Of a stretch of 64,000 nucleotides of DNA, positions 709-45,700 are shown one piece after another. Position 1 is the stretch's first letter. Each line of letters starts with the position of its first letter. The position numbers were made by a program, and so were the translations under genes. Source of the DNA: Ectocarpus siliculosus (taxonomy: Eukaryota; Sar; Phaeophyceae; Ectocarpales; Ectocarpaceae); NCBI GenBank assembly GCA_000310025.1, contig FN648515.1:1-64000 (forward strand), in the 5' to 3' direction. The notes under the pieces are model-generated. The model did no database searches. It had not been told where the DNA came from and saw only the letters and a program-made list of their open reading frames with translations.

Positions 709-883
709 GTGTTCTTTCGCAGCACCACACATGCACTCGCCCGAACGTAGGAAGCCACTGCTGCTGCAAAGAGCAGAGTGCAGCAAAAGGGAGGGGTATT
801 GCAATCCCTGCCGAAGCCCAGATATCGAGGATATCGTTGTTTCCCAACAATTTGCAAATCGTTCCCAAGATCCAGCAGTCATA

Positions 884-1087
884 GACCACTTGCAACAGGA
901 CCCCCCGCACAAAAAAAAATGCTCTGGGCGGAGGGGGTGTGGTGGTACAAAACAATTAGATTTAAGTAATCCGCATTTTTTCTTGAAGAAGACACACTCT
1001 ACAGCAGCCTCGCCACGAGCGAGGGCACACACCCTCCACCCCCCACAGCAGTTGGCACACCCTCTCACGGCGACACAACAGGGGACA
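884..1087 (+). repeat. Left TIR of ISL2EU-type element
   Basis: It matches the reverse complement of 11580-11784 over its full length with small indels, by eye about 85-90% identity. It includes a poly-A tract, a TACAGCAG word and a block rich in ACCCTCCACC. Confidence 0.9.
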
Positions 1088-3427
1088 GGATGGTCCCCGT
1101 TTCATCAGAGAAACCGTGCCAAGGAAGGTGGCTGCAAGAACCTGCAGGCCCCCGTGGTAGAAATCCAGATGTGTCTACAACGCTGCACCTATTCCACGCA
1201 CTCCTCGTGCCGCGACTGGGATCACCAACACTGCGGCCGCAACGGTTGCATTAGGCGTGGGTCAGGAGCGGTGCCCGCGGGCACGGGGGTACAGCAGTCC
1301 GTCGGTGAGCCCCCTGCTGGTGGGTCGGTGTCCGCAGCTTGGGCTTCAGCAGAGGGTCAGGCGATCCTGAACACGGCGCAGTGCGCCGCTGGCGGTCGAT
1401 GCAATCAGGGAGGAGATGGAGCCTTGAGCGGCCGGTGCCATTCGTGCGAGGCTGCTTGCCACGCCGTATGCATGCAAGCAAGTGGTCAACGAGGGCCACG
1501 CCTGCACGTTCTGCCGTCCCGAGCAAGCATGTTTGTGTGTCGAGCACGTTATCTTGGAATCTACTGAGGGGGGGGCTTTGTACATGTAGGTGCTGTGTCG
1601 AGTGGAGCCGTTAGGTCCATTTCCAAAAAAGTTGAAAATTTTCAGGCATGTGGGTGGGGGGCACATGCAAAGCAATAGCGCGGAGGATGACCGCCGTCTG
1701 CTGTGCCTATCAGTAGAGCTGTCGGGAACGAGTTCGTTCAGGTAGCAAGACATGAAATGTAGCTGCGCACATGTTCGTTGTGGTATCGTCTTTTTCCGAA
1801 CCACATGTCGATGTTTCCGTCTCGTCCCTGTCGGACAGGTGGGCCAACGGCGGTGAAGCAAGCAAAGGAAAGGAGAAGCTCCGTACGCCACAAGCGGATC
1901 CGCACACAGCAACTTCCACAACCGCTTCCTCCTCAGAAATCTACATACCACGTGATCCTCGCTTAGACGGCGGAGGGGCGGCCAGCTCCCGCAAATCGCC
2001 TTCTGGCCCCGGTCAGTGTCACAGCAGTAGTGCTTTTAGAGGCTATCCCTTTGCTTCCTCAAAACTGAAGTTTGAATTCCCGGACGTGTCGCGTTAGAAA
2101 GAAAGAGCAACGCACTGGTGTTTCAATGGGAACTACATACTTACAGTCTTGGAAGGACCGGGAGGGGTGCAGGCAAGCAGGAGTTTCATGCTATGCTGGT
2201 GCAAGAAACTAGGAGAGACGCGGGATCTAGGGCTTTGCACCAACGCTGGAATTTGAAATCAGATACACCTTGTACGACATGAACGTCGGAGAGGAACGCA
2301 GACTGCGGTGGGGCAAAAAGAAAACGTTTGTTTTCGGAGGTGTGTGTCAACCCTCAAATCTGCAAACAACGTTGCGTTGTTGTTCTATCTGAGCCCTCCA
2401 CGCTTTGCCTTCGGCCTTGATTGCAGCAGAAGCCGCCAAGACGCCCTCATCCGGGGGTCAAGCTGGACATGCAGACACGCCAGGTGATGCTCACATGTGT
2501 GCTTCCCCTTTCCAAGCTGGAATTTGAATTTCGGGCCGTGGATATCCAGATAAAACGCAGACTACATATTTTTGTGCGAACTACAATTAATAGTTGTACA
2601 TGTGCATATTTTCTTGGAAACACAGGCAAGCTGGGGTGTGAAGCCGTTCTGGTGCAAGATGTTTAAGGTGAGCATGTGTGCGAACCGAGATGCACTGGAA
2701 TGCCGCATAGAAAGATGCTCAATGTACTGCTGTATACTAGGATATATTGGGGGCTGTGGCGTTTTCCCCCAGCTGGAGTTTGTGATCAGGTCGGGTAGAG
2801 CTGTTCTAGACAGGGCACAACGCGGACCTGGAAAAGAAAGCGACGCTTTTTTATTTGTCGGATCCCAATGTGGTATCAAACCTACCTCGCCTCCCTCGAC
2901 CCTTTGCCTTCGATCTCGAGGAGGTGCCGGAACGCCGCTTTCACCCGCACCGCCGGCAAAGTTCAACACCGGGGGTATAGCTGGACAAGCCGGAGCGTCA
3001 GGTGATGCGATGTATGTTGCCCTGAAGTATGTTGCCTTGAGCTGGGGGCATAGGCGCCGGGAAGCAATATACGTGCAGGAGGCGTTGCGGGCCACAAAAC
3101 GACGTATGCTGTGTAGGTTGTGTTTACCGTTTCACTACTGCTGTAAGTCGCCTTGACATGACTGCGTAATCGGTACCCGTTTTCGCGGGTGTTTCGTACG
3201 TCAAAACCTGCCTGCTAGATGTGTCGCCAGCACCTTCGTCTTATCTCGCTCGCGACAGAGTCGGGTACCTGCTGTTGGAGATGATTAATCTGCCGTCTCA
3301 GTTTTGTCAGGACTACGGCGTTCGAAAAGGTGGTCCTCGAAATAGGAGGATAGCCGTCAATCCACTACGAATGTTCGGCGTGTGTGCGGTTTTGGTTTAT
3401 CATGTGTACTCGCCTTAGCACCATTTG
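1088..3427. other. Transposon interior, no firm gene
   Basis: I see no gene I can defend. The plus-strand frame at about 1380-1567 is cysteine-rich (HSCEAACHAVCMQ and neighbouring residues), but it has no clear splice sites and matches no domain I recognise. The right part is taken up by degenerate repeats (2040-3050). Confidence 0.4.
2040..3050 (+). repeat. Degenerate ~260-bp direct repeats
   Basis: Similar word series recur, for example GCTGGAATTTGAA near 2246 and 2516 and a variant near 2769. GCAGAC followed by an A-rich tract follows each. CAGGCAAGC...CTGGTGCAAG appears at about 2172 and 2623. Spacing varies from about 250 to 270 bp, so these are old diverged copies. Confidence 0.45.
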
Positions 3428-4356
3428 ATGCCGACATTCTCCTCACTCCTGCACGACGCCCCTCCCCGCCCACCCCACCCAAATCTCATTCGGGCACAGG
3501 TGACGCTGGACGGTACGCAACATGCGAAGCTGGTCGACGACGTTGCCGCAAAAGTGTATGGGTTGATCGAACCTCGACTGATGGCCATGGCCAAGTACAT
3601 CGTTGGGACTGTATCCGCCACAAAACCGGCTGCGACGCCCCCGGACCCGACACCCATCCGGTAAGTTGTCTACGAACCAGTTTGCTCCCTCGGACAGCGG
3701 GGTCGGTCAGAGTAGCTCCGTCGAGCACAAGATTTGTACATGTTTGGCTCATGTCCTCGGTTTGAGTGATGTGCCGGTTACTGCAGTCACCGCAGGTTTC
3801 TGTTCTTAGCTTTGTTTTTCCGTCCCGACCGGGAATCGTACACAGGCGCTCCAAGAAGGCGCCGTCGAAGTCGTCGAGGAGCAAGAAGCACAGAGAGATC
3901 CCATCACCGTCACCGTCTTCCACCGACCCGTCTTCTTCCTCGAGCGACGCCGAGACGCCCTCTCCTCCCAAGAAACATAAGCGGGGCCGCCCGAGGTGCG
4001 TAGAAGATGGTATTGTTTGCTTGAGATTCCGGTGTCGATGTTCTGCGAGTCTTGGGTGGACAAAACCCCGTTCGCAAGAGAACGGATGGTTACCCCCTTC
4101 TAACACATGTTGTTCCCTTCCCTTTGCGGTCGATTGACGCGTGATTGCCCACACAATACACAGGAAGCAGACACTGGCAGCGACCGACATCAATCAGCAG
4201 GCCGTCCCACGGGCTGCCGCTCACCGGCTGCCGCTCACCCCATGCAAGCGCCTGCCCACCCATACTACGGCGCGGCCCCCAGCTTTCATGCAGCACCCCG
4301 CCTACCACCCGCGGCAGCGCCGAGTTTCATACCCCAAAACCCCGGCAGCTGCATGA
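3428..4356 (+). CDS. AT-hook protein of the ISL2EU-type element (3' exons)
   Basis: Three exons join in frame with GT-AG borders: up to 3660 (donor GTAAGT), 3846-3995 (donor GTGCGT) and 4164-4356 (TGA). An ATG lies at 3428, but an acceptor-like CAG at about 3500 leaves open that the first piece is internal and the true start lies upstream. Reading from 3428 gives about 190 residues. The first part is helical and hydrophobic. The middle is rich in Ser, Pro and Lys and ends in KKHKRGRPRKQ. The core RGRPR is a canonical AT-hook that binds the minor groove of A/T-rich DNA, and it is completed only by splicing. The tail is rich in Pro, Ala and His. The position inside the TIRs suggests a DNA-binding accessory protein, but that role is inferred. 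Confidence 0.6.
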
Positions 4357-5477
4357 TGCACAACCTCTTATAGGCTTTTTGTCGGAACGGCAGTGACGTT
4401 CGCGTCACATATCGCATATTGGTAGGGTGTTTTTTCTTCGAAACGTCTAGCGTTACACGATTCTATCTAGTTGTGGGGTATTTTCGTTCATAGTGTGGTG
4501 GCATGTTGCTGTATTTCCCATGCGGGAACATGAAAGTAGAAAAATATTAGCGCTTTGGGATTAGCGTTGACGCGGTTATTTTTTGTTTCCCTACCCGCGC
4601 AAGGAGCACCCGTTTTTTTTACATTTTGTTTTTTTTTAGACAGTTTTAAGGTCGCTCGGTCCTACAAATAGCTCAATAATGGACGAATAGCCCGCAAGAA
4701 CCACAACGGGCCCCAAAAATATTAAGAAATCGGGATCGTATGCGTTCCCATGTTTCTAACGCCCGGATGGACGCCATGGAAAGCGCGAAAAAGTAGGTAG
4801 TTTCCTGTAGGCTTTGAAATCCCTACCTCGGGGGCACACACGAAGTCAACACGTTGCTCTAGTTTAGTATTGGTGTGTTGGTTCCTTGCTTGCATACGTG
4901 GAAATTGTCCGTTGTAACCAAGGTGATGAAAGACAATGACACCTCATTTCGTTGGCTTCCTTCAGATGTGTATCCAGTATAAACCCTTGGGACGCCAAGC
5001 ACTTGTATGCATACGTTTTTCCTGCCTACTACTTTGCCACAAAACCACGAGGGGGGGGGGGGGGGGCACGAAAGAGGGAGGAGGGAAGCTGACACACGAA
5101 CGAAAGCGCGCGCGTTGGTTCTAGCTGCACAAGCGAATAGACCGGTACGTCATACACCCCGTCCACGAGTCAACACTCCACCGCCTACCCAGGGAGGCGA
5201 GGATCTGGGATGCAACCCATGCGGGTTAGCCTGTGTGGATGTCTGGCGATGTTCCAACGACATCGTGGCCACTGGCCACGCGTCCAATCGTAAGATTACG
5301 CTGCAGTCACATCCCGCAAGGGCGATGTATATGATGTATGGTCGTTCAAAAAAGAACCAACAGACTGCCAACGGCAACAACACCGAACGATAAAAAAAAA
5401 GGACTGTCACCTACCTCCACGCAGCAGGAGCACGGCTGGGCTGCGCGATAGCACATCCTTACCTCCAACGGAGTGCC
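4357..5477. other. Spacer between transposon genes
   Basis: No exon can be supported. The stretch is A/T-rich between about 4400 and 4700 and has a long G run at 5053-5067. It may hold the 3' region of the AT-hook gene and the promoter of the XPG-SWIM gene, but no specific signal is recognisable. Confidence 0.5.
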
Positions 5478-8400
5478 ATGGGAGTGAGCGGATTGTCGGC
5501 ATACCTGAAGGAGGTAGCTTCTAAGAGGGTACCTCTCGACGATGAAGATGGCACGAGACAGAAGCACCTGGTCGTCGACGGTAATTTTGCGTTGCACAAA
5601 GCTGCTGACATCGGGAGCGTGGCAGTTCCTCTTGTGCTGGACGACAACGTCGTCTCCCTCACGATGTCGATGGCCCCAAGCCTGAACAAGCTTGCTTCGG
5701 CAGGGTGGGGATCACCGTGGTTTTTGACGGGGCTTCTCCACCCGGCAAAGGGGCAACCACGCGTTCGAGGTCTAGCGAGAGAGAGCGGGCACGGCAGCAG
5801 TGCTTGGGTCTCCGGGAGTCCAACGTGCCGCTTCAGGATCCAGGTCTACAGAAAGCAGCTGTGAAGGCGATACGTTTACGAGTCACATCGTCGCCAGGGT
5901 CTCACGTGTTGTCTCTCGTGCGTTACGATGCGAGTGCATAACCGCGCCCTATGAGGCCGACGCGCAGCTGCGTGTCTTGGAGGAGATGTTTACACGCGTG
6001 GGGAAACGTGTCCTGGTACGTGGAAATGACAGCGACCTCATGGTCATCGGCGTGCGTTCCCTGCTCTGGGAGGTCGTGCCGAAAGAAGGACGACTGTTCG
6101 GTAACATCTTCACGCATGAGGGTATCACGCGCCCGCAGATGCATGCCCTCCGTGCTGGCACGACGCATGGGCATGAGTTCCTAAGATTGTTGCACGGTGT
6201 CGACCAAGGCGGGTCGGGAGATGCAGTGTGGCGGTCGAGTCGACCGGATGAGGTGATGGCCCGCCTGCAGCTGTGGGCATCCGTCTCAGGCAACGACTGC
6301 TGTACAGCAAGTTTCCCGGGATTGGAAAGGCAAAAGCCACGGATTTCTGCCTGCGAAAGAAGGGTGGGCAGTTCCCCACGCGTGTGGATGTGACGGAAGA
6401 TCTGGTTGGGTCAACGCCCTGGACCGAAGCTGAGGTGACGGCGTCGCTAGACCGCTCTCGAGACATGACGCTTCGCCCTGTCGTGTTCTGTCCTGAGGAA
6501 GGAGTTCAACGACACCTGTCCGGTTGCGCTCCGACAAGTCGCGTCACTTCCAACACAGGTATGTCACCGTCCGGGTAGATAGCGACCTCGTAGTCGTGCA
6601 ACAACGCACTGTAGACGATACATATCTCTGCTGTCTGCAGTACTGGTATGGACTGCTGCCATCTAGATGTGCAAATGTACGTAATCTACCATTGTGTGGG
6701 TTGGTCCAATATCATTCAATTCTGGCTCCCGGTGCACCCTCCTCCTGTATGCGTACGTCGACCTCTCTCTCCTGGGTTGATCGATTTTTTTGTCACAAGT
6801 AATTGATTTCCAGCAGCGTACGTGTGCCCCCTCGGGTTGTGGTCGTTGGTTTATGACATCGGAAGGCGCCTGCCTACTTTGGACCAGCGTTAAGACACAC
6901 AACAATCAACACCTTTAAATGCATTGGGATAGTCTATTGCATGCAAAACACCCATGTGTGTATTGGTATGCATACAAAACCTCTTCCTCTCGTATCGTTC
7001 GTGCCATTTAATGGCACACCCTTAGGTATTGGAAACAGGACGACAGCAACTCCGCTAAGTGTGCATGCCGTTTACTCTCCCCCCTCCTGTATCGTGTCGC
7101 TACGCAGGGGTCATCGCTAACCCTGAAGTCGCGGTGAAAGTAGCCTGTGGGAAAATCTGCCCGTGCACATTGCGTCTGTGGGAGTCTGACTTCCCAGAAC
7201 AGCTGGACTCCCTGCCGTCGCACGCCCCGCGAGTCCCCGCTAAACGAGGACGGCGGACACTGACATCCGGAGAAACGAACAACTTCGGGCGCACGGTTTT
7301 TTCGCGGCTGCCTACAGATACCCAACTTAGCAGCATGACCGTAGCTCAGCTGCGTGAATTCTTGGGGGTGAGAGCACTTCAGCGCATTGATAACGGCATT
7401 TCAGAACGTCGATGACTGCGTTTTTTTGTGCTTAGTTTGCGTTTGGAATTCGTTAGAAATCCCTACTTCTTGGCTGCGGCTGTGCAAACTCCCACTTGTC
7501 CGGAAGTGAGTAAATCCTGCCCACAAATACCGCTATCTAATGGAGCGCATATCTCGCTCGTTCGGCGGTGTCTCGTTTGCCCGCCCGTCTCTCTGACATC
7601 TTCCGAGCAGCTGTTCAGGTGTTTGGAGCAGGCTGGAACTACTTCGTTCTTGAAGCCTAAACTCCTCAGCGTAGCGAAAGGGATCGTACAGGTTGTCGAA
7701 CAGAGCGGGTTGGTGGGAAGCTCGCTCGTGTTTCGCATGCCGCAGCAGGACGCCGCTGCTGGCGGCCTTGACCAGCCCTCCGATGGGTGGCTGGATTGGG
7801 AACCTCTTCGCGCGCAACTCCCTGAACTCGCCGGAGACACCATCATTATTGCGTGGCTGCGGGCCCACGGTTCGCTCATCGGAGATACGGGGCGCGTGCT
7901 GTACCGAGGGATGGAACGTGGGTTGGATCTCGGGGCTCTGGGTTGGTTGTCCGGGATCCCGTGCGGCGAAAACGGCGGGACGTTGCACCTGCCCTTAAAA
8001 AGTGAGTGTAATAATTTTGTTTTGTGTTCTTGGTCGAACGTTTTAGTGTGAAGACAACAATAAGAACTAGCAGGGCAACTTGTATTTTTGTTCTCTTTTT
8101 TTTTCGTTGGTGTTGCCAGACTCGAAAGAACGTGTCAAATTATTTCCGCGGTGTTTGCCCAAACCTACATTTCGTCCGCGAATAAAATCCCGCCCTATGA
8201 AGTCATACCCATGCGCCGCGATGCCGTTTCAGTAATCCACAAGCGCGTCGTTCTCGTGAGCCGATCTGTTCGCGTTACTTGGACCGAAAAAAGATAGCAG
8301 GTCCTTGTAGTGGCAAGGGATGTGGGAAATGCACACGACGTTTGCCTTTTAGGTTCCAAAGTCAGGTGTATTCATGCAACCATCACTTCCAAATATCGGC

Positions 8401-9152
8401 ACTACAATGTTGCGGGTGCCGCCCGTTTTTCCAACTGTTCGCATCATGCCTGTGTGTGATTTCAGCTCGCGCGGATCCATGAGAGACAAGGAATATCTCG
8501 TCCAAGCTGATGTGCGTGTGGAGAGGGTGGATGTTGTTGCCGAACACCCCGACGTCAACGAGGGTGACAACGACTCTAGTGACGGAAGGAGCGACGATGA
8601 CATTCGACGGAGACTGGTCGCCACTTGTGTAGAAGCGGCATGGTGCCAGTGCCAGTCGAGAGCGGGGGGGGGTTGCCACCACGTTTGCCAGGTCCTGCAA
8701 CTAGTGCGCCTTCTGCAGCTGACAGAGCACGAGCTAGAGACGTGGGACTCGGATTCGCTCACGAGTGTCGCTTGCCAGTGGATCCTCAACACTGTGGGGG
8801 GGGACGAAATACTGAATTCGACATCTTCAACGGGGCGACGGTCAGGGAAGTCGTGGGAGAGTTACGAACGCTGAGAGATCCCAAGAGAGTCCCGTTCGAG
8901 GGGGGTGGTGACGACGTGCCGAACACTCGTGGAGTGGTGGCAATGGATCGCAGAACTGAGTTTAGCTCGCACCCCGATCATGGCAAATGGGCGAGCGCCC
9001 GCGAGGACTTTGGTGGTGGCGAAAGTATGAGCCACGCACAGTGGGACATGCTGTCCAGGTTTATTGACGGGGAAAGGGTTCCGGGAGCAGGAGGGAGCAC
9101 TAGCTTAGAAGTCGACGTCCTGAGACCCCGCTTGAGGCGTGAATCTACTTGA
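5478..9152 (+). pseudogene. XPG/FEN1-type nuclease with SWIM zinc finger, decayed
   Basis: The ATG at 5478 opens with MGVSGL, as XPG-family nucleases do, and Asp34 sits in VVDGN, the position of FEN1 Asp34. Further metal-ligand motifs follow in order: VVFDG (~5715), APYEADAQL (~5950), GNDSDLMVIG (~6025) and VSGND (~6287), then the helix-hairpin-helix PGIGKAKA (~6320). These lie in different frames, so at least three indels split the nuclease part (near 5700, between 5860 and 5930, and near 6300). Later exons are supported by splice sites: 7108-7367, with a SAP-like segment TVAQLREFLGVR, and 7611-8001 (donor GTGAGT). Then comes WCQCQSRAGGGCHHVCQVL (~8640), a CxC...CxH SWIM finger, followed by SVACQW, and a frame change before the end at 9152. 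The expected product is a structure-specific nuclease with a DNA- or protein-binding finger, serving the convergent transposase. This copy cannot encode it. Confidence 0.8.
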
Positions 9153-9671
9153 AGACGCACGGTATCGACTTTTTTTTTTGTTTTCCCTGTCGCGTCGAAT
9201 GAGTCTGATTTTGAAAAAGGACTCAAGATACATGGTACCCTTCCAAACTCGCTCATTTTAAGCAGGTGGTTGCGAACAAATGTACGTCGAAGTACACCGC
9301 TACTTGCAGCGTGGGTCGCGCCCTTTCTGTGCAGCACGATGCCCCCCACACCAATTGCATCAGAGACCACATTTGTGCTTGAAGAAAAGCATCAATGGTC
9401 GACCTTGGCACCGCCCCAAATGAGAGTCCGCGACAGGGCCATCATACCTAACCCCCCCCCCAAAAGAAAAACAGCGGACAGGGTCGTTGCACGGCTTGTT
9501 GTTTGTACAATAAATTCAAGGACAAGTACAAATGGTTAAAGAACGTTCAGCTCGTCCGCATGTCTCCCCCCTTTCACATAAACTGCTGATATGTACGGGG
9601 AGCGCTCGCGCGCAGACAAAAACCACAACGACCACCCAGGATAAAAAAATATATATTATCACTTCGCGTAG

Positions 9672-11546
9672 TCACTTCGCAGACGCAAAGGGCTTGCGAG
9701 TGAGGTTAACCATGGCATCGCAAACCAGAGCTATCTCTCCTATGTTGTCCATCTGCTGGGAATCGAACTTGGTATCAAAAATACGCCACTTTTTCATGGC
9801 TCCTATCGTTCGTTCTACGTGAATACGGAGGTTGGCCACCTCCCGAGTGACGCCGGCATCCTCCTCGTTGAACTGATCTTCACCCTTTCGCTTGCTCGGC
9901 GGCGCAACGTAGTGCATTCCAATGTGATCAGGAGTGGTGCCATCGCGTTAAATCCTCTATCAGCCATTACGTGCATGCCCTTGCCCCCGAAACCCTGCTC
10001 AGCCAACTCCTCCACAATCCCACACTGTCTAACCAACTCGACGTCACTCGTTCGTCCAACGAACGCATCGGACACGTAGCAGATGGCACCCGCGGGGATG
10101 ATGCCGATGAGTATCTTCGCTGTATATCTCTTCTTGTACTGCAACCACAATGCATGTTGCGCATCTGACTGCCACACTTTATCGCACCAAATCTCTGTCC
10201 CGTCGAGAACAACGGCCACAGAGGAAAGACCTTCCCTTTCGAAATTGGGTGGGGCACTCGACACCACGCTTCCTACATCTGGCAGTCGCACGAGGGGCCT
10301 CAAGCTGTTCGCCAATAAGTCGAGCCAACCCGTGAACGCCCTACCACCGTTCGAGTCACTGACGCCGAACAGGGTGGACGCAGCGCGAATGGAGGTACCT
10401 GTACGCAACACGAACAGAACGAAAAACAGGCCGTTGGCCCCCCCCAACGTCTTCGGGCGCATGACTACCCTCCGCCCGTCTTCTTTCACACCCTCTGCCT
10501 GCACCGGGTTCGCGTTGTAAATGTTCATGTTTTCTGCCACGCCGCCGATGTTGAGGAAGTTGTACAGGTTCTGCTTAGCATCGACAGACGGCAGCAACAA
10601 GTACAAAAATAGTCGGAACCTGCTGTAAGTAGTCCTGTTGTTGGTGACACGATCGACCTCGGGTCGAGGCTAAATGTGTTGTTCGTTTACACCGCCGAGT
10701 ACCGGTTACTTGGCCACTGCGGTGGTTCAAAGTTTGTACAAGTCAACGACGGAAATGCTTACATACAACGGAGCCTCGACATTACAACAGCAGTCGCAAC
10801 TGGAGTTGATTTTGAGTTTAGTCGCGGATGGATCTGGTGCACCAAACAACAGCAGTAGTTTTCAGGACTTAACATTCTTATCGAACCATCCCTGCACACC
10901 GTAAACCCTAAGAGGACAACACGACGGTGTGCGCCAGGCATACCTTCAGGGATTCCGCGCTCCTGAGTCCACACAAGCTCCTAGCTGCCTCGTCTCTCTT
11001 CCCCTCGAGAATGGAATCGTCAATCCTGCTGCTACGTGCACCCGGTGCCTCCCCATCCTCCCCTCGGTTCGCCCTCTGCTGTTTCCCGTCAACCGTGAGC
11101 TCGCGGATTGTCTTCTCCAGCATGTTGACTCGGTCCTGTAGTTCTTGTATTCGAGCATCTTTCTCTACGTCCGTCGTGCTTGCGTCAAGCAGGGATTGTC
11201 GGTGGCGCTCCATGATGGCGTTGCTTCTACGCAGTGCCGACAACAGCTGTCCCTTGGTACCGGCAGACATCTGTTCGTCCGTTTGGCTCGGAAGAGCCCC
11301 TTCTACTAGCTTCACCACGACGTTTGTGCCCCAAGGCCCCGAACCTTGCTTGCTAGCCTCCACGTCGTCAGCTGAGAAATGACCAAGCCACACTCTTGGG
11401 TCTTGCAAGGTGGTTTCATCAGCCAGGCCGAGTGCGTTCTCGTAGGTCGCTCTTTTACCCAAGGGCACCCGCATTTCTCCCTCCCCACCGACCTCTCGGC
11501 ACACCCGTGAGTTGCAAATGCATTTTCTCTGGGTGCTGCTGTACAT
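9672..11546 (-). pseudogene. ISL2EU/IS4EU DDE transposase, one frameshift
   Basis: Exon 1 runs from ATG 11546 to 10944 (donor GTATGC). It encodes a Cys-rich start (CICNSRVC), then VWLGHFSADD, resembling a THAP-type C2CH finger, and a coiled coil (about residues 120-150). Exon 2, from about 10.58 kb to 9672, encodes the catalytic core. The first Asp is in VVLDGTEIW. YKKRYTAKILIGIIPAGAI and YVSDAFVGRTSD are typical of the family. The second Asp is in MADRGFN, and the Glu is in LRIHVERTIG, followed by KKWRIF. The reading frame breaks near 9917, between MADRGFN and the PPSKRKGED segment that should follow it. Without that single indel all three acidic residues would be in one frame. The gene lies next to the right TIR and converges on the XPG-SWIM gene. 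Confidence 0.85.
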
Positions 11547-11579
11547 CTCAAGCTTTTTCCGGCTTCTGGGTACACACTG

Positions 11580-11784
11580 TGTCTTCTGTTATGTCAGCGT
11601 GCGGGGGTGTGTCAACTGCTGTGGGAGGTGGAGGTTGCGTGCCCTTGCTCGTGGCCCGGCCGCTGCTGTAGAGTGTGTCTTCTTAAAAAAAAATGCGGAT
11701 AATTTAGATTCAATTGTTTTGTACCACCACACCCCCCCGCCCAGAGCATTTTTTTTGGTGCGGGGGGTCCTGTTGCAAGTGGTC
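11580..11784 (-). repeat. Right TIR of ISL2EU-type element
   Basis: It is the reverse complement of 884-1087 with small indels. The outer end is GGTCCTGTTGCAAGTGGTC followed by TA (11785-11786). The inner end lies just outside the start codon of the transposase, so the TIR may also carry its promoter. Confidence 0.9.
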
Positions 11785-12030
11785 TATTGTGTAGGCAGCT
11801 ACAACGAACGCTACAACAACGCTACTACTACTGCTGTAGACAAGTAAAACATATCAGCAACACATCCACACTCGTAGCGCCACACATACCACCCTCGCCC
11901 GAACCTACGAAACCACGAGGTACAGGTGTGTGCTGGTGGATGTGCATGTTGTTTGAAAAACACAGGAGCTGTAGAGAGCTGGCAGGGCACATTTCGGGGG
12001 GGGGACAGAGAACGTGCACCACCAGTAAAA

Positions 12031-42707: not shown

Positions 42708-45700
42708 TCAAGCCTGTCCCTTGTTCTGCCCCGCGTTCCGCTCCAGGTTGAACAGCGGGCGGTACTGTCGCTTGTTGTCCAGCATCATTCGCAGCGCCAT
42801 ACGGGTGGCGGCGTCGCCCGACCTCGTCGGCGCGGCCTTGGAGGTCGTCCGGAACCCTGCCGGGAGCGTGCGCTTTTCCGTCAGCTGGGGCCGGTCACGT
42901 CCGGATTCCCCGTCCTCCTCTGACGGGTTGAGAGGCTTCACTTTCTCGTCGCACAGGAAGTTGTCAGACGGAAAAGTGCAGTGATGAGGGTACTGCGCCC
43001 AGGGAACTGGACCCGCAACGGCCTCCACAAAATACCCCACTGTCCAACGAGGATGCCGAAAGCTTGCTCTATCTTCACCCTCAGTTGACTGAGGTAGAAG
43101 TTGAAGGCGTCCTGGGCTGGAGTAGTAGCTCCCCGGGGTACGGCGTGAGGAGTTGGTTGCTGAGGGGGTACGCCGCATCTCCTAGCATATAGAAGCCAGG
43201 CTGCAGGCGCGCCACGGTGTGTGATAGCTCCGAGCGATTCCACGCAGTCCAGTCATTGGTCGAACCGGCTGCGATGGTCGACATGCTGTAGAAGCGGTAG
43301 TTGGCATCACAGGTCGCCTGCACCTTCAACCCATACGCGTTCTTGCTACCCGAATAATAGGAGAGCACGTTCGGGGTTTGCGTGGGAGGTGGAGCATGCA
43401 TCTTGACCAAAAGGCCATCTCCAGCAGCCACACAACCAGCGAACGCGCCACCGGTGCTTTTGGCCTGGCGATTTCGGAAAGAGCAAGAGTTGACGAAGCG
43501 GTGTAGAACACGCATGCGGTGGGGGGGGGGGGAAGGGGCGCCGGGGGGGGTAGAAAACAACGAGCCACAGTTAGAGAGATGTACTGTAGCTTTTTGCTGT
43601 TGTTATAGCATTTTTGATGAAGAGCGGCCCAATTGTTTGTTTTTTTTGCAAGAAAAAGCTGTTTAGAGGGATCATGATGTGCATGTACGTACGTGAAAAA
43701 ACAAAAAATCGTGCACAGGGGGGCCATTTTGCAGCGAGTGTGTCCGGCCGTGTCTGTGTGCCGATAAATACACAGGAGACTCGAGTCCATTTCGCCATCT
43801 AGGCACAAAATTGCAATTCGAGAGTGGTGCACAAAAGTAGAATTTTGCCCGAGCTGTCACAACTGCTTCCAGCTCAATCCGTGCTCGGTGCATCGAGCTA
43901 GCACAGCATCTGCGGCGAAATTGAAGTAGAGAACCAAGCGTCCTCGCCCAAAATCACAGGCAGGCGTGATTTTTTTTGGTTCCGCCGGTCGATGTTCTCA
44001 GCAGCTGCTGCTGCTGCTGTGCCTAAACACACACGCTACACAGAGACAGGGTTGATGGACAAGGGGGGCGGGAGACACACACACACCACCGGAAGAGCAA
44101 GGCCGGAGGGTGTGCCCTGTACTCTACAGCTGTTTGCTATCGGCGGAGGAAGCGAGAGGAGACGAGAAGAAGCGTTGGTTGTGTTGTGCGTTTCGCGAGC
44201 GGCAGCGTTTTTGTCATAAGCGGGAGAGGACAAGATGCACACCAACACGCGGCTAGACACCACTATTGATGATCAATGTGTAAACCTCTCCATACTTTTG
44301 TGCGAGGGCCTGGGGTGCCGCCTGTCCCTTCCGTGTGCTAGTCTGACCACAAATCACACGCTTTGGAGTTGTCTACAGTGCATAGATCAAAGCTCCAACC
44401 AGAGAGAAGAACAAACAGAGAAAGTTTTTTCTTGGGCTGCGATGTATGTAGCTGATGATCACACACACACACCCCTTCTCTGGAAATCAGCATTTTGTAT
44501 AAACGAGCATTTTGTAGCAACGCACGAGCCTACTAGGTACGTTCTCCAACAACAAAGCTATTCCACATTACCCTCTTGTATGACCCGAGTCGACATACAC
44601 ACGTGACAATTTTTTCGTAGGAGTGTGAGGACAGACGCCCGTAAACACACAACAGTACCTCAGAGCGTGGCCGACGGTTCGTACAGCCGTGGTATAGCTT
44701 ACTACCTTATCGGCGGGCGAAATGAAGGTTCGGGGGCGATAGCGCCTCCCGCATGGAACAAAATGTTGCTGACCTTCCCAACGTAAGGGTGGACGCGCGC
44801 GTTTTGACTACGTTTATGGGTCTGATGTCAACCTATTGGGAGGGTGAAAAAAATCTACAGCACTAGTCTACCGCCGTACGGGGCCGGAGGTAGGCAGTAG
44901 TAACCTGTTGAATTTTGCGTGCTGTTGTCCGGAATTTTGAGTGTAGGACTGGGTATTTACGAAATGTCATGCAACACACAGGCGCCCACTCTGTAAGAGT
45001 CGTTCTTGGACTCCACAACACGTTCGCTTCTATGTTGCTGAGTGAGGGGATGCAGGGGAAAATGCCAGAGATTCCCTTCCCGCAATAGTAGAAGTGTATG
45101 GGAGACCACATACGATGTTCCACTAAAGTACAACACCTATGATACAAACACACATGCACCGACCTCCCACTCCTTCGCTTACCGGGAGCACTCCTCTGGT
45201 GTCTGGGGAAAAAAGAACGGCCCAACCGTCGGCGTGTTGTTGATGGCGTCCACCACTTGCCACATGATGTGGAAGACGGACTCCTTCGAAATGCCGAACA
45301 GCAAGCCGACATCGATGTATGACGCCCCTGCGAACATGCACAGCGCAACTGCCAGCCGAATTTTCACCGGCACAGCTCCACTGCTCGCGCGCAACCCTGC
45401 ACCACGCGACCAACAAGAATACAAGCATGGATGTACCGGTAAATTCGAAGCCCAAGCACTTGTCAGGCGCATCGCCGGACGGACATCAGCGCACATGCCA
45501 TCTCCAAGGCGTCTCCTGCGCTGCTGATGTCCCTGGCGGTGCCAATTCATCTTTCGGACATCAGCGGTGAGCAGCAAATACAAGTGCAAACCGGCGGCTG
45601 CGCTCGCGACGGCAAGACAACCCTGACGAAACCTAACCCTACTCCCTCTTCCTCACGCGCGGACGCACCCTGTGTGGGTATATCTCTTACTTGCGTAGAA

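Follow-up and report, generated by a model that had tools for sequence, protein, structure and literature searches.

In animals, the partner proteins of ISL2EU transposons contain SWIM together with a C-terminal YqaJ, a lambda-exonuclease-like 5'-3' exonuclease. Academ transposons carry XPG, and the AcademX transposase belongs to a different family from that of DDE_Tnp_4/HTH_Tnp_4 elements.

According to PMC4482050, ISL2EU elements have AT target-site duplications (TSDs), a transposase with DDE, HTH and THAP parts, and a YqaJ partner, the last in 'most' autonomous candidates. Their terminal inverted repeats (TIRs) usually start with GG, the inferred target A|AT|T is backed by empty sites, and the elements as published come from animals only and average ~4.8 kb. 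The same paper gives PIF/Harbinger a 3-bp TWA TSD and a Myb/SANT partner, and describes what the PHIS second ORF does as unknown. TSD and partner vary among PHIS groups (PMC4482050 and PMC12730594), and AcademX encodes a nuclease and has a TSD of 3-4 bp (PMC10045372).

Here, we analysed 64,000 nucleotides of Ectocarpus siliculosus contig FN648515.1 (positions 1 to 64,000; the window) and found a transposon that, in our reading, adds a new variant to ISL2EU: its partner contains a predicted Rad2/XPG 5' nuclease, in contrast to the YqaJ of animal elements. The open-access literature (Repbase lay outside the scope) gave no report of XPG in ISL2EU or Harbinger elements or of a transposase with XPG and SWIM. 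Open-access matches for a transposon with XPG and SWIM were unrelated, judged by title and start of abstract, and none of the open-access matches listed for Academ with XPG deals with Academ transposons, judged by titles.

Results

A DNA transposon occupies positions 883-11785 of the window; its TIRs are ~205 bp long and its TSD is AT. As the preliminary description had stated, there are TIRs at both ends (left, 883..1087; right, 11580..11785), and these are 87-88% identical across 201-207 bp; self-comparison of the element (blastn, E <= 1e-3) gave no further inverted repeats. Its ends had been set at 884-11784 and its TSD given as TA. However, a paralogous empty site of the relative C390 revealed a 2-bp AT TSD and an element starting with A. 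Hence, the window element spans 883-11785, with AT at 881..882 and 11786..11787, and TA is ruled out.

The insert was absent in 9 of 9 copies read of the C390 insertion site, and one of them (L067) is an exact flank-AT-flank. C390 gave the only clean empty site of ten insertions searched (best 40 of 1,475 candidates); the candidate empty site for L058, a MITE, did not align over the junction. C13, C53 and the window element are each flanked by AT on either side; the window insertion lies in C|AT|T, and the other sites are A|AT|A, C|AT|G and C|AT|G. TIRs start with AGG in family A and at the right ends of family B and with AGA in family D (families are defined below); element size is 10.9-15.2 kb. 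Copies with the same TIR ends that lack XPG-SWIM, an outcome the preliminary description had set against its own claim, do exist; the seven read at both ends are MITE-like and 434-490 bp long, share the first 53 bp of the left TIR, and in 3 of 7 cases have AT/AT flanks.

The transposase gene lies on the minus strand, convergent with the XPG-family gene. Its exon 2 (9670..10669) matches Pfam DDE_Tnp_4 (E 8.5e-19) and HTH_Tnp_4 (E 4e-7), and since the third DDE motif, NLRIHVERTIGAMKKW, is present in another frame, we place one frameshift near 9,900-9,930. HTH_Tnp_4 exceeds the cut-off in families A, B and D; the scanned exons of C25, C38 and C28 gave no match to it, and C25 matches Plant_tran. 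Exon 1 (10911..11588) is an open frame with a THAP-like C-x-C-x4-C...HF segment followed by weak coiled-coil matches, and this CxCx4C...HF exon is conserved across families A, B and D. Families A and B gave Pfam THAP matches below cut-off (E 0.0041-0.026) and family D gave none, and a whole-genome THAP search returned none of these exons and one sub-threshold match elsewhere (C40). We read the element as ISL2EU from its TSD, HTH_Tnp_4 and sub-threshold THAP, and not from a tree with ISL2EU references; the DDE core noted earlier is confirmed, and the earlier ISL2EU assignment is supported in this qualified form.

The second gene lies on the plus strand, and its N-terminal part is an XPG/Rad2-family (EXO1-like) nuclease exon (5478..6558, the 3' end taken from a GT). 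Frameshifts break it in the window: VVDG (5571), VFDG (5720), APYEAD (5944), NDSDL (6025) and SGND (6286) are spread over three frames, and aligned copies differ from it by single bases, not introns. Pfam matches in the window are only sub-threshold (XPG_N E 0.22, XPG_I E 0.0029), whereas XPG_N exceeds the cut-off in families A, B and C, and XPG_I does so in family C and stays below it in B and D. The exon is fully open in C390, C71, C131 and C239, the last with K for one catalytic E. In C13, C53 and C15 the frame stays open for ~287-300 residues from the start, and in C372, E replaces one catalytic D.

A PDB profile search matched EXO1 (E 3.4e-16), and the nuclease scores closer to EXO1 than to FEN1. 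The AF2 model of the C390 exon matched EXO1 in Foldseek (1.6e-13) and in VIA (Z 18.2, rmsd 4.9 over 281 residues), at ~20% sequence identity. Elsewhere in families A, B and C, copies retain the residues that we take to be the EXO1 catalytic acids and Lys/Arg cap, although the segment that aligns the last catalytic Asp with EXO1 is weak (3.8 bits). Alignment and model together predict that the exon is an EXO1-like fold with catalytic acids. Hence, the acidic motifs of the XPG/FEN1 nuclease noticed earlier are all there, but in three frames of the window copy and in a domain closer to EXO1.

Exons 2 and 3 of the partner gene (7108..7367 and 7611..8001) have inferred borders. Exon 2 ends in a SAP-like MTVAQLREFLG (Pfam SAP E 0.016-0.024, below cut-off) and is conserved with family A, with the intron at the same place; of nine related loci inspected for exon 3, eight have matches with 30-37% identity. 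Exon 4 (8466..9152) has a SWIM-type CxCx7CxH with C.W, here CQCQSRAGGGCHH at 8644-8682 and then CQW, and the window copy has a frameshift after CQWIL. The three Cys and the His are invariant in 9 aligned sequences, and of 16 loci whose sequence was taken across this region, 13 have the motif. Pfam SWIM reached E 0.052, below cut-off, in one of eight members, and the AF2 model of this exon was unusable (mean pLDDT 38.7; one chain at Z 2.1 was left unused). We call the exon SWIM-type on the conserved CxCx7CxH motif, so that the SWIM finger with CQW reported earlier is retained as a motif rather than as a profile match. The four exons probably form one protein, judging from their order, the conserved intron place and analogy rather than transcripts.

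A possible third gene is marked by a Cys-rich PHD-like motif at approximately 1370..1570 on the plus strand, where the window copy is frameshifted but C261 and C4 keep an open frame; the match to PHDvar_NSD is below cut-off (E 0.0049). On this left side, family D has the PHD-like motif and family A a different Cys-rich ORF; the two ORFs gave no match to each other.

The copy at C261:3399-14779 has the same flanks as the window copy, and hence represents the same insertion on an allele or haplotig. The window copy has frameshifts in both genes; separate insertions of its family are all partial (C4, C223 and C200, with an end fragment in C460), and no copy with every gene intact was established among the loci examined.

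Across the genome, we found XPG-like ORFs at 17 loci, with the window copy (C94) and its allele C261 counted separately. At 13 of them, these two alleles included, a related DDE gene lies no more than 10 kb away and converges on the XPG ORF as in the window, which confirms the convergent second gene and the recurrence that the preliminary description had proposed as a check; four loci have no DDE gene within 10 kb. The transposase-XPG pairs fall into four divergent families (A-D), with a spacing of 3.4-4.5 kb in 12 of 13 pairs and 9.2 kb in C122. Spacing and orientation rule out chance pairing. In families A and B, some copies combine an open XPG exon, the EXO1 catalytic acids and the SWIM motif. 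Less damaged relatives are predicted to encode a THAP-like/HTH/DDE transposase and a convergent partner with an EXO1-like nuclease at its N-terminus, a SAP-like part and a SWIM-type zinc finger at its C-terminus.

Between families A and B, dN/dS was 0.14-0.19 for XPG and 0.09-0.12 for DDE, ratios that are only rough because dS is saturated. As estimated from these alignments, amino-acid changes are far rarer than silent ones.

None of the SWIM exons matched YqaJ. In the whole genome, YqaJ had two matches, and the sole one over cut-off sits inside a run of intronless virus-like genes; a YqaJ transposon partner elsewhere in this genome was set aside. No relatives beyond this genome were confirmed in viral_contigs or genome_contigs, which says little, as these collections are viral or prokaryotic.

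Discussion

We consider it likely that the window element is a damaged cut-and-paste transposon that belongs to the PHIS group and the ISL2EU lineage, and whose XPG-SAP-SWIM partner would trim 5' strands. The transposase would cut the AT-flanked ends and insert the element by its 3' ends at an AT target. Meanwhile, the partner would be held at the element ends by its SAP-like and SWIM parts, perhaps also by the transposase, and would trim 5' strands where short 5' flaps are left at the insertion junctions. Alternatively, its substrate could be the 5' ends of the donor break; trimming there would lead to copying repair, by which the element would be regained. Since YqaJ is a lambda-exonuclease-like 5'-3' exonuclease, an unrelated 5' nuclease may do the same step and may have replaced it. 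That the algal ISL2EU branch swapped nuclease folds in this way, with a shared SAP-SWIM scaffold, YqaJ absent and an N-terminal EXO1-type nuclease gained, is quite possible, and we put it forward tentatively. That the SWIM exons do not match YqaJ fits the earlier proposal of XPG in place of YqaJ; the replacement itself is a comparison with published animal elements.

Instead, the element could come from a different, perhaps new, branch of PHIS that lies outside ISL2EU and has always had an XPG-type partner of its own; there would then have been no exchange for YqaJ. The TIR start AG(G/A) rather than GG would suit such a branch, as would the THAP-like Cys pattern (CxCx4C, third Cys missing), which is unlike the THAP consensus. 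So would the variation of TSD and partner among PHIS groups (PMC4482050 and PMC12730594) and the animal-only range of published ISL2EU (PMC4482050), the genome here being photosynthetic (72 light-harvesting matches). Nevertheless, AT TSD, HTH, THAP-like N-terminus and nuclease partner jointly fit only ISL2EU among the PHIS groups compared from PMC4482050, and we regard a separate branch as unlikely, though a serious contender.

A lesser alternative to a 5'-trimming ISL2EU partner is an XPG domain that has lost its cutting activity and merely binds DNA. Catalytic residues are changed in C239 and C372 (K for E and E for D), the window copy is broken, and nuclease activity is predicted from sequence and a model. 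However, the EXO1 acids and Lys/Arg cap are kept in other A, B and C copies, and amino-acid changes between families A and B are few, which makes a non-cutting domain improbable. That Academ transposons carry XPG could point to an XPG gene nested in the element (Academ-like or other), or to a host nuclease captured once by one copy. Such an origin is hardly credible, even with a nuclease encoded by AcademX (PMC10045372): nesting was rejected because 4 of 4 elements examined have no inner inverted repeats, whose presence the preliminary description had said would refute its claim. Moreover, order and spacing are alike in four families, the transposase is of the DDE_Tnp_4/HTH_Tnp_4 type, and a TSD of 2 bp differs from the 3-4 bp of AcademX (same source).

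Hence, we keep to an ISL2EU-like element, now outside animals: this genome holds an old cut-and-paste group with its own predicted EXO1/FEN1-type nuclease, where the animal relatives have an unrelated nuclease. If the fold swap is true, it is a natural exchange in the PHIS second ORF, and nuclease chemistry would matter rather than the YqaJ fold. Two unrelated 5' nucleases would then serve the same transposition step, so this step would be 5'-strand processing of element or donor ends. This is a hint that what these elements need from their helper enzyme is its nuclease activity, and EXO1-type substrates offer a bench test of partner function.

Among known systems, AcademX resembles our element in its nuclease gene, an XPG, beside the transposase, and differs in transposase family, here DDE_Tnp_4/HTH_Tnp_4. 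PMC10045372 speaks of a 'nuclease' and gives a TSD of 3-4 bp instead of 2 bp, and an Academ reading was rejected on TSD and transposase. PIF/Harbinger shares the PHIS-group DDE transposase with a second gene, but has a TWA TSD and a Myb/SANT partner (PMC4482050) where our element has AT and XPG, and a Harbinger reading was likewise rejected. The partner is like Exonuclease 1 and other Rad2/XPG nucleases in predicted fold and motifs, but has only ~20% identity, lies inside a transposon, and has SAP-like and SWIM-type parts after the nuclease. With ISL2EU, the element shares the 2-bp AT TSD, the DDE and HTH transposase, here with a THAP-like part of sub-threshold score, and a nuclease as second gene; it differs in its algal host, its length (10.9-15.2 kb against ~4.8 kb on average), its TIR start (AGG/AGA instead of the usual GG), its insertion sites (other than A|AT|T, which we count as a secondary feature), and above all in its partner nuclease, which is XPG/EXO1 rather than YqaJ and N-terminal where that of the YqaJ partners is C-terminal.

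XPG nuclease and transposase recur as a pair

The transposase and its partner, a convergent second gene, form a conserved gene pair in Ectocarpus siliculosus. Searching the genome with the XPG exon of the relative on contig C13, we found at least 23 match rows at at least 17 loci, C13 itself included (counts are lower bounds). Identity to this exon was 91-98% for C390, C71, C53, C407, C178 and C33, 51-54% over the longest piece for C131, C15, C239, C376 and C122, and 29-39% for C261, the window's contig C94, C4, C187 and C372. A related, convergent DDE gene lay within 10 kb on the same contig at 13 of the 17 XPG loci found, counting the window element and its allele on C261 (flanks match) as two; the recurrent co-occurrence that the preliminary description proposed to look for is therefore observed. 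At C239 the two genes are 15 kb apart, outside the limit; C376 has no DDE gene within 10 kb, its contig stopping 3.7 kb beyond the XPG match, and none was found near XPG at C372 and C4.

Conversely, relatives of the window's transposase occur at 19 loci, of which 14 have XPG (C239 among them). C223 and C200 have lost the XPG start and kept the SWIM part, the C454 contig ends 0.6 kb on, and no XPG was found at C114 and C12. Of 16 loci fetched over the SWIM region, 13 had the pattern C.C.{7}C.H where expected, and C114, C12 and C4 did not; C178, C239, C376, C372 and C122, fetched for the XPG exon alone, are outside this count.

The window copy

The window's transposon (883-11785) has TIRs of ~205 bp that are 87-88% identical, and no further inverted repeats were found in it. 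On the minus strand, the transposase has one exon with a THAP-like CxCx4C...HF segment (open frame 10911-11588) and one with HTH_Tnp_4 and DDE_Tnp_4 (9670-10669). Converging on it, the partner gene (5478-9152, plus strand) has four exons: the first encodes XPG, two lie in the middle, and the last contains CQCQSRAGGGCHH...CQW. Exon borders were inferred from GT-AG signals and relatives. Because the XPG motifs are spread over three frames and frameshifts occur in the transposase (near 9,900-9,930) and following CQWIL in the SWIM exon, this copy looks dead.

Near the left end (1370-1570) is a Cys-rich PHD-like motif, open in C261 and C4 and broken in the window, which is possibly a third gene of the element; a different Cys-rich ORF occupies a comparable place in family A (C390:2290-3056). 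Between this motif and the XPG gene, possible basic exons with an AT-hook-like KKHKRGRPR (3500-4370) gave no Pfam match over cut-off. A further DDE_Tnp_4 fragment (56.9 bits) lies at 43105-43419 (minus).

Insertion duplicates AT

The element inserts with a 2-bp AT duplication. The C390 insertion lies inside a repeat, and its joined flanks matched end to end at at least 31 places and partially across the junction at at least eight more; the insert was absent in all nine places read. Comparison of the empty stretch L067 (GAGA-AT-ACTCC) with filled C390 (GAGA-AT/AGG...CCT/AT-ACTCC, slashes at the borders) therefore gives AT as the duplication and AGG as the element start. Seven other empty copies have T instead of C after AT-A, and L073 lacks two further bases. 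The TA duplication of the preliminary description would make the empty site 2 bp longer than observed. Ends at C13, C53 and the window are consistent with AT; among the matches listed (40 of 1,475 candidates), the other nine query insertions had no clean empty site.

Eight MITE-like copies carry the element's first 53 bp; of seven legible at both ends, three are flanked by AT/AT and four by AC/GT, AC/TT, TC/GC and CT/AT. Those in L056-L062 are 434-490 bp long and begin like the TIR of the window family over these 53 bp. L057 and L061 read CA/GACC...GGTC/TG, with flanks that are palindromic instead of repeated, and an empty-site candidate for L058 did not align across the junction.

The partner has a predicted EXO1-like fold

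The XPG profile found EXO1 (3.4e-16), FEN1 (1.3e-7), XPG (2.6e-5) and 6vbh (1.5e-7), an entry that bears both the XPG and the FEN1 label. VVDG, LDG, READ, NDSD and AGND align with the catalytic residues of EXO1 (D, D, E-x-D, D-x-D and D); the match to the last falls in a second, weak segment (3.8 bits). Substitutions occur in single copies: C239 has K for E, and C372 has E for D. Of five AF2 models of the XPG exon, the best (mean pLDDT 74.7, pTM 0.75; the other four, 51.8-67.7) matched EXO1 (Foldseek 1.6e-13; VIA Z 18.2, rmsd 4.9, 281 aligned). Pfam XPG_N exceeded cut-off in families A, B and C, and XPG_I in C only. As modeled, the partner nuclease has an EXO1-like fold with EXO1's catalytic acids.

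Animal ISL2EU partners have SAP and SWIM alongside YqaJ. Here, exons 2-3 of families A and D encode a SAP-like helix at an intron of identical place (Pfam E 0.016-0.024, below cut-off). In the SWIM exon, C56, C58, C66 and H68 are invariant in nine sequences; Pfam SWIM matched one of eight members (E 0.052), and an AF2 model lent no support to a SWIM fold. Hence, the SWIM-type assignment is supported by the invariant residues, neither by Pfam nor by the model. The word SWIM does not occur in the two papers searched on ISL2EU coding capacity.

Four divergent families

By divergence, the loci fall into families A (C390 and others), B (C131, C15, C239, C376, C122 and C114), C (C187, C372) and D (window). 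Comparing one member per family, with some stretches of D translated through frameshifts, families A and B are closest to each other in every part: 75% for the transposase (other pairs 42-50%), 57% for the XPG_I region (31-41%), 49% for XPG_N (35-38%) and 69% for the SWIM exon (32-42%). Three family A elements with both ends are 12.2, 14.3 and 15.2 kb, with 310-bp TIRs 96-98% identical; identity between C390 and C53 reaches 99%. Both ends of family A and of the window family share the core ATAG....CTTGCAA.AG.

An open XPG exon runs full length in C390, C71, C131 and C239, and in C53 as far as the fetched piece reaches; the exon is frameshifted after ~290-300 residues in C13, C15 and C376, and also damaged in C33, C407, C178 and C122. 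Hence, families A and B each hold copies with open and copies with damaged XPG exons. In the A-B comparison, dN/dS of 0.14-0.19 for XPG and 0.09-0.12 for DDE are rough values because dS is saturated; for the SWIM exon, dN is ~0.29 and dS beyond measure. Within families, ratios of 0.39 to 2.13 reflect few changes and carry little weight.

Possible mechanism and relation to ISL2EU

The partner would work as a 5' nuclease at the ends of the element or of the donor. It would either trim 5' flaps at the junction of the insertion or resect the donor break, so that the element would be copied back during repair. We advance 5'-strand processing, in either form, only tentatively. YqaJ is a lambda-exonuclease-like enzyme that likewise acts 5' to 3', which makes an exchange of YqaJ for XPG plausible.

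The one YqaJ ORF in the genome that exceeded cut-off (L028-L029, C16:4382000-4392500) sits in a group of long virus-like ORFs without introns, with collagen-like repeats and, by eye, a helicase-like ORF; this region resembles the integrated genome of a large DNA virus. Other DDE_Tnp_4 elements differ from the window family: C25 matches Plant_tran, and the exons scanned in C25, C38 and C28 contain no HTH_Tnp_4. A C25 ORF considered as a SANT-like partner was dropped after a Pfam scan without match. Compared with the THAP consensus, the THAP-like CxCx4C segment of families A, B and D (L002, L031, L037, L039, L043 and window 10911-11588) is missing the third zinc Cys and has one Cys added; it may be a rearranged zinc site.

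In the published description, ISL2EU elements have an AT duplication, a DDE, HTH and THAP transposase, a YqaJ partner, TIRs usually starting GG, the target A/AT/T, and 14 host species, all animals (PMC4482050). The Ectocarpus element shares the AT duplication, DDE and HTH; THAP is weak and absent from the genome-wide THAP listing. Unlike ISL2EU, its nuclease is of XPG type, its TIR starts AGG/AGA, its wider target is other than A/AT/T, and its host is photosynthetic (72 light-harvesting matches in the genome). Judged by duplication and domains, the Ectocarpus element is probably a variant of ISL2EU.
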